From: a bacterium
GTDB taxonomy: Bacteria > SZUA-182 > DTGQ01
Assembly (NCBI GenBank): GCA_023512255.1
Contig: JAILZY010000044.1
Span: 1 to 28,213, forward strand
Direction of reading: 5' to 3'
Length of the DNA stretch: 28,213 nt
How positions within the stretch are numbered: position 1 is the stretch's first letter; each line of letters starts with the position of its first letter. The notes beneath the pieces were generated by a model that did not search any database, had not been told where the DNA came from, and saw nothing but the letters and a program-made list of their open reading frames with translations. The translations under genes and the position numbers were made by a program. Shown here piece after piece: positions 35-24,755 of the stretch.

Positions 35-331
35 TTATATTTTCAACATTATTTTTTCAACATGGGGAACATCTGATTCATTAGAGGATAACGGAGCTAC
101 CACCCGCCACCGCTTATCTTTGCTCAATGGCCTCGTTTCCATAATCACAACCTGATCGCCTACCTTATACCTGTTTTCTTCATCATGCGCTTTGTATCGC
201 TTTCTTCTCTGGATAACCTTTTTATACTTAGGATGAATGATCGTTCTTTTAACCTCTACGACCACCGTCTTATCCATTTTATCACTAACTACAGTCCCGA
301 TTCTTTTTTTCCTTTGTCCCCTACTGTTCAT
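35..331 (-). CDS. rpsQ: 30S ribosomal protein S17
   Basis: S17 binds 16S rRNA and is a primary assembly protein of the small subunit. The 98-residue product opens with the family pattern [22 protein letters not shown] and contains the S17 beta-barrel strands through about residue 80 ([16 protein letters not shown]). It is longer than the E. coli protein (84 aa); the extra C-terminal residues (about 82-98, [12 protein letters not shown]...) are a charged tail. The gene starts 4 nt after the rpmC stop, as expected inside the S10 operon. The purine-rich 34 bases downstream (1-34 on the plus strand) hold a GGGGAGGAG tract that may belong to the leader of the next gene, but no start codon is visible before the window ends. 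Confidence 0.98.
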
Positions 332-991: not shown

Positions 992-1666
992 TCAAACGTT
1001 GTAGGTAACACTCTCTAACTGCTCTTTCGATGGCTGCTCCTTTGACAAAACCTCACCCTTAAAAACCCACACCTTTACTCCAATAACCCCATAGGTAGTT
1101 CTAGCTATGGCCATGCCATAATCAATATCAGCACGCAAGGTGTGAAGCGGAACCCTTCCTTCCCGATACCACTCACGCCGAGCCATCTCAGCTCCCCCTA
1201 GCCTTCCCGCACAGGAAATCCGAATCCCTTCAGCCCCAAAACGCAAGGCCGCCGTCACCCTCTTCTTCATCGCCCTTCGGAAAGCAACCCTTCGCTCTAG
1301 TTGCATAGCCACATTTTCAGCTATCAGCTGAGCATCAATCTCCGCCTTCCGAATCTCATGAATGTTGATCGAAACCTGCTTGTGCGTAAGAGCCTGAATT
1401 TCATCTTTTAATTTATCAACCTCTGTCCCTTTCTTCCCAATAATAATCCCAGGTCGCGCCGTATGAATGTTGATTCTTACCTTATCAGATGCTCTCTCGA
1501 TTTCAACCCGTGAAACTCCAGCATTTTTTAGCTTTTCTTTCACAAAGGCCCTGATGCGCAAATCCTCAAGCAAATTCTTCCGATATTCCTTCCTCGAATA
1601 CCATTTCGATTCCCAGGTCTTGGTAAAACCTAATCTAAATCCAATAGGGTGTACTTTTTGTCCCAA
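992..1666 (-). CDS. rpsC: 30S ribosomal protein S3
   Basis: S3 lines the mRNA entry channel of the 30S subunit and contributes to ribosomal helicase activity. The 224-residue protein begins [13 protein letters not shown], a near-invariant S3 start. A type-2 KH domain is visible around residues 38-106, with the GxxG-type loop in [16 protein letters not shown] at about 71-86. The C-terminal S3 domain includes [26 protein letters not shown]. The last about 20 residues are a variable tail. It follows rplV by 11 nt in the usual operon position. Confidence 0.98.
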
Positions 1667-2020: not shown

Positions 2021-2305
2021 CTACTTTACCCTAGTTGATTTTTCGCTCTTAGACCCGTGCCCTCGAAACGTCCTAGTAGGGGCAAATTCGCCTAACTTAT
2101 GACCAACCATATTCTCCGTGATATATATTGGAATAAACTTTCGGCCATTGTGTACAGCTATGGTATGACCGACCATCTCAGGGAAAATAGTTGAATTCCG
2201 CGCCCAGGTTTTAATAACCTTCTTCTCCAAGGCCTTATTCATCTTTTCAACCTTTTCCCAAAGATTATGATCAATATAGGGCCCTTTTTTCACCGACCGC
2301 GCCAC
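2021..2305 (-). CDS. rpsS: 30S ribosomal protein S19
   Basis: S19 forms the head of the small subunit with S13 and contacts bridge B1 regions. The 94-residue sequence starts [19 protein letters not shown] and contains [45 protein letters not shown], which is diagnostic. The start codon is GTG, read clearly because AGGAGG lies just upstream at normal spacing (positions 2306-2320 region). It sits between rplB and rplV. Confidence 0.98.
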
Positions 2306-4095: not shown

Positions 4096-4123
4096 CTCTT
4101 TTCACGCAACTTTATCCTGAAAA

Positions 4124-4432
4124 TTATAGCTTAATCTCTACATCAACGCCGGAGGGAAGATCGAGACGCATTAAAGCATCCACGGTCTGCGGTGTTGGTT
4201 CCAAAATATCCAGAATCCGCTTATGAGTGCGGATTTCAAACTGCTCTCTGGACTTTTTATCAATATGCGGAGATCTGAGAACGGTATAGCGATTCTTTCT
4301 GGTCGGAAAGGGTATCGGTCCAGATACCTTGGCCCCAGTCCGCTTTACCGTCTCAACTATCTCACCGGCCGACTGGTCTAAAATCTGATGATCATACGCA
4401 CAAAGTTTAATTCTTATCCTTTGACCTTCCAT
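4124..4432 (-). CDS. rpsJ: 30S ribosomal protein S10 (NusE)
   Basis: S10 is a small-subunit head protein that also acts as NusE in transcription antitermination, coupling NusG-bound polymerase to the ribosome. The 102-residue product has the family pattern [52 protein letters not shown] (residues about 6-58) and ends in a typical VDVEIKL. The ORF could open one codon earlier at a GTG (4435), but the ATG at 4432 is better placed relative to GAGGA upstream and gives the usual length. It follows tuf copy 1 by about 112 nt. Confidence 0.98.
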
Positions 4433-4435
4433 CAC

Positions 4436-4535: not shown

Positions 4536-5770
4536 GCTTGCCACCTATTCAATAATCTCACTGACCACACCGGCACCGACCGTACGGCCACCTTCCCGGA
4601 TAGCAAAGCGCATCTCTTTTTCCAAGGCAATCGGAGTGATGAGCTCGGCCGTAATATTCACATTATCCCCAGGCATCACCATCTCTACCCCCTCGGGCAA
4701 ATGCACCGTCCCGGTAACATCCGTCGTCCGCACAAAAAACTGCGGCCGATAACCATTGAAAAACGGCGTGTGCCGACCACCCTCTTCTTTGGTCAAAACA
4801 TAAACCTGAGCCTTAAACTTCGTGTGCGGCGTGATCGTCCCTGGCTTGGCCAATACCATCCCCCGCTCAACCTCTTCCCGCTTCTTACCCCGCAGCAAAA
4901 CTCCTATATTGTCTCCAGCCTGACCCTCATCCAATATCTTGCGAAACATCTCTACCCCTGTGGCTACCGTCTTCTGCGTCTCCCTAATCCCAACTATCTC
5001 TACCTCATCTCCAACTCGAATCACCCCTCGCTCTACTCTACCCGTGGCTACCGTCCCACGACCAGATATGCTAAATACATCCTCTATCGGCATCAAAAAC
5101 GGCTTGTCTATGTCCCTCTTCGGAAGCGGTACATACTCATCTACCGCCTTCATCAAATCATATATCACCTTGCAGTTAGGACAATTCTCCTTACCACACC
5201 CACACTCTCCTGCCTTCAGAGCCGATCCCCTAATCACCGGAACCTCATCCCCTGGAAACTCATACTGACTGAGCAGCTCCCTCACCTCAAGCTCTACCAG
5301 CTCCAGCAACTCCTCATCATCCACCATGTCCACCTTGTTCAAAAAAACCACTATATACGGCACACCTACCTGACGAGCCAACAATATGTGCTCCCTTGTC
5401 TGCGGCATCGGTCCATCAGCCGCCGATACCACCAAAATCGCCCCATCCATCTGCGCCGCTCCAGTAATCATGTTCTTCACATAATCTGCATGACCAGGAC
5501 AGTCCACATGCGCATAATGCCGATTCTCCGTCTGATACTCCACATGCGCCGTCGCTATCGTTATCCCCCTCTCCCTCTCCTCAGGCGCATTGTCTATCTG
5601 ATCAAACGCCTTGTACTCTGCCAACCCCTTGTTGGCCAATACCTTAGTAATGGCTGAAGTCAGCGTCGTCTTACCATGATCCACATGCCCTATCGTCCCT
5701 ATATTTACGTGCGGCTTCGTCCTCTCATACTTCTCTTTCGCCATTTCAGTCTTCCCTCCAATTTCTCCTT
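4536..5770 (-). repeat. tuf direct repeat, copy 1 (1,235 bp)
   Basis: This segment matches 20490-21724 at a constant offset of 15,954 bases. It covers the whole tuf gene, 9 bp after the stop and 26 bp of the leader with its ribosome-binding site. The translated products are residue-identical, and other reading frames through the copies also agree, so the DNA is identical or nearly so. The match ends abruptly at 4535/20489 (a versus g) and 5771/21725 (t versus c). The limits fit a gene-conversion tract. Confidence 0.95.
4545..5744 (-). CDS. tuf: Elongation factor Tu (copy 1)
   Basis: EF-Tu is the GTPase that delivers aminoacyl-tRNA to the ribosomal A site. The 399-residue protein shows the G1 loop GHVDHGKT (19-26), DCPGH (81-85), NKVD (136-139) and SAL (174-176), followed by domains II and III ending in AGVVSEIIE. 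Between the G5 motif and the helix leading to [11 protein letters not shown] lies a four-cysteine cluster (C181, C183, C188, C191; CxCx4Cx2C), absent from E. coli EF-Tu. It follows fusA by 62 nt and precedes rpsJ, the classical str-operon position. The other copy at 20499-21698 encodes an identical protein. Confidence 0.99.
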
Positions 5771-20489: not shown

Positions 20490-21724
20490 GCTTGCCACCT
20501 ATTCAATAATCTCACTGACCACACCGGCACCGACCGTACGGCCACCTTCCCGGATAGCAAAGCGCATCTCTTTTTCCAAGGCAATCGGAGTGATGAGCTC
20601 GGCCGTAATATTCACATTATCCCCAGGCATCACCATCTCTACCCCCTCGGGCAAATGCACCGTCCCGGTAACATCCGTCGTCCGCACAAAAAACTGCGGC
20701 CGATAACCATTGAAAAACGGCGTGTGCCGACCACCCTCTTCTTTGGTCAAAACATAAACCTGAGCCTTAAACTTCGTGTGCGGCGTGATCGTCCCTGGCT
20801 TGGCCAATACCATCCCCCGCTCAACCTCTTCCCGCTTCTTACCCCGCAGCAAAACTCCTATATTGTCTCCAGCCTGACCCTCATCCAATATCTTGCGAAA
20901 CATCTCTACCCCTGTGGCTACCGTCTTCTGCGTCTCCCTAATCCCAACTATCTCTACCTCATCTCCAACTCGAATCACCCCTCGCTCTACTCTACCCGTG
21001 GCTACCGTCCCACGACCAGATATGCTAAATACATCCTCTATCGGCATCAAAAACGGCTTGTCTATGTCCCTCTTCGGAAGCGGTACATACTCATCTACCG
21101 CCTTCATCAAATCATATATCACCTTGCAGTTAGGACAATTCTCCTTACCACACCCACACTCTCCTGCCTTCAGAGCCGATCCCCTAATCACCGGAACCTC
21201 ATCCCCTGGAAACTCATACTGACTGAGCAGCTCCCTCACCTCAAGCTCTACCAGCTCCAGCAACTCCTCATCATCCACCATGTCCACCTTGTTCAAAAAA
21301 ACCACTATATACGGCACACCTACCTGACGAGCCAACAATATGTGCTCCCTTGTCTGCGGCATCGGTCCATCAGCCGCCGATACCACCAAAATCGCCCCAT
21401 CCATCTGCGCCGCTCCAGTAATCATGTTCTTCACATAATCTGCATGACCAGGACAGTCCACATGCGCATAATGCCGATTCTCCGTCTGATACTCCACATG
21501 CGCCGTCGCTATCGTTATCCCCCTCTCCCTCTCCTCAGGCGCATTGTCTATCTGATCAAACGCCTTGTACTCTGCCAACCCCTTGTTGGCCAATACCTTA
21601 GTAATGGCTGAAGTCAGCGTCGTCTTACCATGATCCACATGCCCTATCGTCCCTATATTTACGTGCGGCTTCGTCCTCTCATACTTCTCTTTCGCCATTT
21701 CAGTCTTCCCTCCAATTTCTCCTT
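20490..21724 (-). repeat. tuf direct repeat, copy 2 (1,235 bp)
   Basis: This is the second copy of the unit at 4536-5770, in the same orientation, including the leader and ribosome-binding site. Flanking sequence diverges at once on both sides. The copies bracket secE through fusA, so homologous recombination between them would remove about 16 kb of essential genes; selection should prevent that while still allowing gene conversion. Confidence 0.95.
20499..21698 (-). CDS. tuf: Elongation factor Tu (copy 2)
   Basis: This gene encodes an EF-Tu identical in all 399 residues to the product of 4545-5744, including the GTPase motifs and the four-cysteine cluster at 181-191. Here it is downstream of four tRNA genes and upstream of rpmG, which corresponds to the tufB locus of E. 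coli. A GGAGGGA ribosome-binding site lies about 9 nt before the ATG. It probably shares a transcript with the tRNAs driven by the promoters at 22119-22217, so the two copies are likely under separate control despite identical coding sequence. Confidence 0.99.
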
Positions 21725-23078: not shown

Positions 23079-24755
23079 TTACTTTCTCTTCCACACCGTG
23101 CCCTCTTTGCGATCCTCAAGCACGATTCCCTTCTCCTGAAGCCGTGAGCGAATCTGATCAGCTAAGGTCCAGTCTTTTTTAGCCCGGCAGATATTGCGAA
23201 TCTCAAGAATAATCTCCATTAAGTCATTAACTATATTATCATCATCGGCTAATTTCGACAAAGCTTTAGATTCCTGAAAAAGTCCCAAGACCCCGCCAAG
23301 TTCCCTGATAAGGTCCACCATCTGCCGCAGGTGCCGTCTTTGGTCATGATTCATAGAGGGATGATCATGAATAAAAATATTTACCTCTTTCACCGCCTCC
23401 CAGAGTCTGCCAATGGCTTCCGCAGTGTTAAAATCATCATCCATAGCTGCTTCAAAGGCGGCTCTGAGACTGCCGAGCCCTGCCTCATCCTGCTGCTTTA
23501 CAGTCTGTGCCCGCCGCTGGCTATGATCGCGGCCAGATCCTCCTGCTGGCTCCTGCTCCCCGGCAGCTTCTGGCTCCTGAGTGCCTGATAGCGGCTCCTG
23601 GCTGCCCTCCTGGGCTGAGCTGTATATCTCCTGCAAGGCTGCATCTTTTTGGCCCGGCTCCTGGCTACCACGGGCTGATAAGCCCTGAGTGCTGGCTACT
23701 AGCCTGCTCTCCTCCTGGCTCTCCCCGCCTGGCTCCTGCTCTCCCCCTCCTCCTGCCTTGATAAGATACTCTGCCGTATCAAAGGTATTATACACTCGCT
23801 CCAGAGCCCTGGCCGCCTCATCCAGCCCAGCAGTGGTAAAGTTGACCGGGCTTCGATAGTGCGTGGACAAAAGAAACAGCCGCAAGGTTTCACTGCTGTA
23901 TCGGGCCAGGACCTCTTTAATGGTGAAGAAATTCTTCAGAGATTTTGACATCTTCTCCTGGTTGATATTCACAAACCCATTGTGCAGCCAGTAGCGGACA
24001 AAAGGCTTTCCCGTAGCCGCCTCAGATTGGGCAATTTCATTCTCATGGTGGGGAAAGATCAAATCCTCTCCTCCCCCATGAATATCAAAGGTTTCGCCAA
24101 GATGCTTGATCGACATGGCCGAGCACTCAATATGCCACCCAGGACGTCCTGCTCCCCAAGGGCTTTCCCAGGCAGGCTCACCCTCCTTGGCGCTCTTCCA
24201 AAGGACAAAATCAAGAGGATCCTTTTTTCGGCTGTCAACCTCAACCCGTGCCCCAGCCTGCATACTGTCCAGACTCCTCTTAGATAGCCGACCATAGGCG
24301 GGAAACTTTCTGATGTCAAAATAGACATCTCCTCCCTCGACCCGATAGGCATATCCCCGCTCTTCGAGACGCCGAATAAGAGCAATAATCTCTTCTATAT
24401 GCTCGGTGGCCTTTGGCTCAAAAGTAGCCTGTCTGACCCCAAGACGCTCCATGTCCTGGTAGTAATCAGCCGTATACTTTTGAGCGATCTCCTTGGCCGT
24501 GCAGCCCTCTTCCTGGGCCCGCTTGATGATCTTGTCATCAATATCAGTAATGTTGCGGATGTACCTTACGGCAAACCCCCGATACTCCAGATAACGCCGA
24601 ATGACATCAAAGATTATCGCTCCCCGAGCATGCCCGATATGGCAGTGGTCGTAAACCGTCACTCCGCAGACATACATCCCTATCTGCCCTGGAACCAAAG
24701 GAGTAAACTTTTCTTTTCGGCCAGTTAAGGTATTGTAAACCTGAAGTTCACTCAT
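23079..24755 (-). CDS. cysS: Cysteinyl-tRNA synthetase with low-complexity insertion
   Basis: This class I synthetase charges tRNA-Cys. The 558-residue protein shows the HIGH motif (HIGH, 39-42), KMSKS (268-272) and the zinc ligands expected from E. coli (C30, C211, H236, E240). Typical CysRS is about 460-490 residues. The excess lies between the helix ARALERVYNTFD (315-326) and FEAAMDDDFNTAEA (434-447), where residues about 334-425 form a Gly/Gln/Glu/Ser/Pro-rich stretch with five QEP motifs. Catalytic and tRNA-binding parts look intact. Its ATG overlaps the gltX stop by 8 nt (ATGAGTGA), so translation is coupled. Confidence 0.98.
   Translation of the reverse strand: MSELQVYNTLTGRKEKFTPLVPGQIGMYVCGVTVYDHCHIGHARGAIIFDVIRRYLEYRGFAVRYIRNITDIDDKIIKRAQEEGCTAKEIAQKYTADYYQDMERLGVRQATFEPKATEHIEEIIALIRRLEERGYAYRVEGGDVYFDIRKFPAYGRLSKRSLDSMQAGARVEVDSRKKDPLDFVLWKSAKEGEPAWESPWGAGRPGWHIECSAMSIKHLGETFDIHGGGEDLIFPHHENEIAQSEAATGKPFVRYWLHNGFVNINQEKMSKSLKNFFTIKEVLARYSSETLRLFLLSTHYRSPVNFTTAGLDEAARALERVYNTFDTAEYLIKAGGGGEQEPGGESQEESRLVASTQGLSARGSQEPGQKDAALQEIYSSAQEGSQEPLSGTQEPEAAGEQEPAGGSGRDHSQRRAQTVKQQDEAGLGSLRAAFEAAMDDDFNTAEAIGRLWEAVKEVNIFIHDHPSMNHDQRRHLRQMVDLIRELGGVLGLFQESKALSKLADDDNIVNDLMEIILEIRNICRAKKDWTLADQIRSRLQEKGIVLEDRKEGTVWKRK
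23481..23756. repeat. Degenerate QEP-coding repeats inside cysS
   Basis: This in-frame segment encodes about 90 low-complexity residues. The plus strand repeats variants of TGGCTCCTG (CAGGAGCCA in the coding direction), producing QEP at residues 340-342, 365-367, 386-388, 393-395 and 401-403. Spacing between repeats is irregular, so it is not a clean tandem array. Base composition is clearly more GC-rich than the rest of the gene. Confidence 0.85.

Follow-up and report, generated by a model that had tools for sequence, protein, structure and literature searches.

Few bacterial gene orders are as conserved as that of the S10 operon, which serves as a marker both in taxonomy and in the search for ribosomal genes. 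In the genome considered here (G000; a 3.83-Mb draft in 172 contigs, 96.6% complete with an estimated 2.2% contamination), the operon is found on contig C30, whose entire 28,213-nt stretch was analyzed and is referred to below as the window. The copy in this window lacks rplC, the gene for ribosomal protein L3, at its usual place between rpsJ and rplD. L3 is essential, and binds early in the assembly of the 50S subunit, among the first of its proteins. The question raised by the locus is thus where the L3 gene is, and whether it has moved, was lost from the assembly, or has been replaced.

The rpsJ–rplD junction

The two genes flanking the expected position of rplC, both on the minus strand, are intact: rpsJ (ribosomal protein S10; 4124..4435) matches Pfam PF00338 with an E of 4e-39, and rplD (L4; 3466..4095) matches PF00573 with an E of 1e-71. 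The spacing between them is 28 bp (4096..4123, minus strand; coding-strand sequence TTTTCAGGATAAAGTTGCGTGAAAAGAG) and contains no coding remnant of L3; the earlier note was right to state that the junction leaves no room for this protein. The remaining genes keep the canonical order, again as had been claimed: after S10 and L4 follow, all on the minus strand, rplW (L23; 3179..3469), rplB (L2; 2315..3142), rpsS (S19; 2021..2305), rplV (L22; 1678..2016), rpsC (S3; 992..1666), and rplP (L16; 564..968), with their order matched to relatives, and then rpmC (L29; 336..551, a 71-aa open reading frame with L29-like sequence) and rpsQ (S17; 35..331, Pfam PF00366). A tblastn search of the window with approximately 110 L3 proteins gave a best E of 0.003, at a position inside the rpoB/rpoC region, which bears out the statement that no L3-like sequence occurs elsewhere in the window.

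A copy of tuf (4545..5744, minus strand) lies upstream of rpsJ. Over all of its 1200 bases it is identical to a second window copy (20499-21698), and the identity continues for 9 and 26 bases into the flanks, which reflects either recent gene conversion or duplication of one copy by the assembler. Elsewhere in the window, cysS (23079-24755) encodes a CysS whose conserved segments are separated, at about 23460-23760, by some 100 inserted residues with a high content of Q, E, G, S, and P.

The canonical operon, tabulated as rpsJ-rplC-rplD-rplW-rplB-rpsS-rplV-rpsC-rplP-rpmC-rpsQ for Fusobacterium, Clostridioides, Bacillus, and E. coli (PMC1924603), has the same gene order as the operon described here apart from rplC, and the str operon rpsL-rpsG-fusA-tuf precedes it here as usual. 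In contrast to the canonical arrangement, rplC does not stand between rpsJ and rplD, either in the window or in four related genomes (G001-G004), and is instead encoded elsewhere with a promoter-like element of its own. Published rearrangements of the same 40-kb cluster are likewise changes fixed in a lineage; however, those described are insertions between operons and translocations, with rplC unnamed, whereas here a single gene has been removed from the interior of an operon.

A single rplC gene on another contig, and its counterparts in the order

When the rest of the G000 assembly was searched with the Ribosomal_L3 profile (Pfam PF00297), as the earlier note had proposed, a single intact copy was found on contig C72 (G000:C72:377-1039; 220 aa). 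The encoded protein scores 62.6 bits, above the curated cut-off of 22, and is collinear with a solved uL3, residues 4-210 aligning on residues 3-205 of 9i5t_E (E 1.7e-67). The gene starts with an ATG at C72:377, preceded by AAGGAG, and the contig itself starts 376 bp ahead of it. The next gene, 58 bp 3′ of rplC, encodes a 699-aa product resembling acyl-CoA synthetases of the ADP-forming type, and is followed by a 355-aa gene with the look of the phosphotransacetylase family (both named from a reading of their sequences). C72 and the window are similar in base composition, with GC contents of 46 and 48%, respectively, and a tetranucleotide r of 0.92.

We compared this arrangement, using draft assemblies throughout, with four further genomes of the same order (G001-G004) and four of the same class outside the order (G005-G008). 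The L3-less S10–L4 junction is present in all four of the other order genomes (with gaps of 28-52 bp), and it is this recurrence in close relatives that identifies the move as real rather than a gap in one assembly. We located rplC itself in four of the five order genomes; in G001, G003, and G004 it lies upstream of the same acyl-CoA-synthetase-like gene as in G000, and the genes of C72 recur in order, such that the downstream neighbors of the relocated gene are conserved while the upstream ones differ between species. In G002, L3, the synthetase, and the gene after it are all absent, a pattern that the loss of a single contig would produce. The four order L3s form one clade (support 100/96), and those of G000 and G001 are 82-83% identical. 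All four class genomes outside the order, by comparison, keep S10-L3-L4. Because the order is without rplC in the operon while these class genomes retain it, the relocation is derived: the derived state is found in the whole order (G000-G004), and the ancestral state in G005-G008. Among the class genomes, G008 has approximately 1 kb between S10 and L3 (L038, G008:C67, 628-1647), and the other three have short gaps.

Upstream of all four relocated rplC genes we observed a near-consensus element, TTGACA-N17 (the spacer ending in TGC)-[CA]ATA[AC]T, at −284 (G000), −164 (G001), −164 (G003), and −116 (G004) from the ATG, together with a Shine–Dalgarno sequence AAGGAG before each gene. Among the in-operon rplC genes of the survey described below, just 3/127 have a comparable element in the 300 nt before the gene. 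The element is conserved within the order only; a search for a promoter common to rplC genes relocated in other phyla gave none. This sigma70-type element probably drives rplC. With the gene outside the common transcript, the question arises of how the supply of L3 is matched to that of the other ribosomal proteins; it would presumably be set by the gene’s own promoter and not by co-transcription with them.

The leader of rplC in G000 is longer than the others, and contains two direct repeats: a perfect 27-bp unit (L031, on G000:C72, 181-207 and 242-268) with no other copies in the genome; the sister species shows no such unit in its leader. The repeat is neither a CRISPR nor a dispersed one, given that its two copies in the genome both lie in the rplC leader. 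The same locus encodes a 236-aa Gly/Tyr/Leu-rich protein with GGLGGLYGG-like repeats (L031 13082-13792), and G004 has a CAP-like protein with a similar repeat tail (L034 14117-15172).

Location of rplC and an L3 loop in other phyla

The extent to which rplC leaves the S10 operon elsewhere was surveyed from a search over 386 genomes, with L3 and its flanks read in the genomes that it listed and in those already compared. In the first survey set outside the phylum, L3 is followed by L4 in 113 genomes and is not in 8 (G036, G051, G054, G099, G119, G197, G200, and G256), and in each of these 8 S10 and L4 were confirmed to adjoin with no L3 between them. A second set of 40 genomes, judged from the L3 side only, has 34 in the operon and 6 outside it (loci L265, L269, L273, L284, L285, and L292). 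Taken together, L3 lies away from S10/L4 in 14/161 genomes outside the phylum (9%, a rough figure, as the sample favors genomes whose L3 scores highly against Pfam). The earlier note had placed rplC at this position in nearly all bacteria; that generalization stands for the 147/161 genomes where L3 adjoins L4, and fails for the other 14. The same arrangement, S10–L4 without L3 and L3 elsewhere, is found in three named genomes among those with the nearest L3s, namely Deltaproteobacteria SKW240 and ZodW_Metabat.263 and one Auribacterota genome (relocated L3 loci of this kind are L045, from SKW240, L059, and L064). The relocation in the order is thus one of a recurrent kind, and in those lineages looked at the neighbors of the relocated gene differ from one to another. 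We found no report of rplC outside the S10 operon in the literature, of which subscription journals were covered only in part, so that earlier reports may exist.

The relocated L3s (that of G000:C72 and those of surveyed loci L151-L297) have in common a loop of the form HGxH[ED]xxR[HG]xG, which in G000 reads HGTHDYSRHGG (residues 139-149); in-operon L3s mostly have HGSMFHRxPG at this point, one residue shorter. A strict pattern, [HR]G[TSAN]H[ED]xxR[HG]xG, was written on the first set, and is present there in 14/15 relocated rows, a count that includes the three named genomes, selected because their L3s resemble that of the order; in G003, a G replaces the second H of the motif. With the three named genomes left out, the motif occurs in 8/8 relocated lineages (the order counted once) versus 5/117 in-operon rows (Fisher p 1e-9). 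Applied unchanged to the 40 further genomes of the second set, the strict pattern is found in 5/6 relocated versus 3/34 in-operon L3s (p 5e-4); the sixth relocated L3 has HGVHEVFRHGG, one position off, and a relaxed pattern captures 6/6. Both p values assume independence among genomes, an assumption that does not hold. This association of relocation with a loop type near the catalytic center, which extended to genomes outside those used to define the motif, would surprise a specialist.

By alignment, the loop maps a few residues ahead of uL3 position 149 (E. coli numbering), the site of tiamulin-resistance substitutions in the loop extending toward the peptidyl transferase center (PMC7345174). 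The motif of the relocated L3s would accordingly lie in the same loop as those mutations, but it differs from them in being a natural type tied to gene location, known here from sequence alone, and not a resistance mutation.

Origin of the relocated gene and of its loop

That L3 lies outside the S10 operon in this order is near certain. We consider it probable, taking this location jointly with the identity of the gene as the native copy, that rplC relocated in the ancestor of the order: it would have left the operon for a site upstream of the acyl-CoA-synthetase-like (ADP-forming type) gene, the operon would have closed cleanly after its departure, and the sole remaining L3 gene would now be expressed from its own sigma70-type promoter. 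Vertical descent of the gene, which we infer, is less sure than its location, the trees of L3 and of the other ribosomal proteins being too poorly resolved to prove it. Among the options that the earlier note had listed (moved, lost from the assembly, or replaced), a move is favored by the presence of L3 on another contig, the junction in five assemblies, and the downstream neighbors common to four. An artefact of assembly or binning, in which a misjoin removed rplC and the copy on C72 is a contaminant, might be suspected in a 172-contig draft with 2.2% estimated contamination and a contig that begins 376 bp before rplC; it is very improbable when the L3-less junction is common to five separate assemblies, the relocated locus has the same neighbors in four, and the L3s of G000 and G001 are as similar as noted above. 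Loss or mis-assembly of rplC is ruled out by the five assemblies. That L3 is dispensable in this lineage, or that an unrelated protein replaces it, is scarcely conceivable, since only absence from the window speaks for it and C72 carries one intact gene for a full-length L3.

A more substantial alternative is that the order gained an L3 gene from another lineage at the new site and subsequently lost its own rplC from the operon. The order’s L3 is 46% identical to that of the class and 47% to those of unselected other phyla, whereas for S10, L4, and L2 the class is the closer match; its best foreign match (62%) is to SKW240 (L045), itself a genome with L3 outside the S10 operon; and in full L3 trees the relocated L3s group, with 4 changes of location label versus 10 and 7 in trees of other ribosomal proteins. 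The identity to the Deltaproteobacterium, compared with 46-48% to the class, was the first hint of a foreign gene, and is weakened by the choice of the named loci for similarity to the order’s L3; with 22 unselected genomes, identity is 46.4% to the class versus 46.7% to other phyla. AU tests run to look for horizontal replacement did not in any case reject the order and class together (p-AU 0.17 with 70 rows and 0.11 with 39 rows), and the other ribosomal-protein trees do not join order and class firmly either. Nor does the grouping of relocated L3s point to transfer: with unselected taxa, full L3 trees need 4-5 changes, and without the 19-residue loop they need 7, as do the S10+L4+L23 and L4 trees, so that the grouping comes from the loop alone. 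For the same reason we rejected a common lineage of ‘orphan L3’ genes, for which the hint of 4 versus 10 changes became 4-5 versus 7 with unselected taxa and was gone without the loop columns. Replacement thus appears unlikely, and we prefer the simpler view that the native gene relocated.

The sister rows of the order in the S10+L4+L23 tree (G043, G226, G084, and G355; weak support, 84) also count against replacement, as they carry the same loop with L3 still in the operon, and this suggests that the loop arose before the relocation. A single clade of motif carriers is not rejected either by S10+L4+L23 (where its likelihood is slightly higher, p-AU 0.55) or by L3 without the loop (p-AU 0.28); the motif may therefore be an ancient feature inherited within one broad set of phyla, where rplC later moved out of the operon on one or more occasions. 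Shared ancestry, a functional link between loop and location, and repeated transfer of a solitary L3 are the candidate causes of the association. It is a tentative and rather doubtful proposal that the L3 genes outside the S10 operon encode one type of L3, marked by the HGxH[ED]xxR[HG] loop by the peptidyl transferase center, with a link to location beyond shared ancestry, either because the loop permits the gene to leave or because a mobile L3 lineage repeatedly displaced the native one. If it were true, the location of a gene and the make-up of a loop at the ribosome core would be connected by more than common descent. An independent-pairs test of loop against location yielded only one pair on supported branches.
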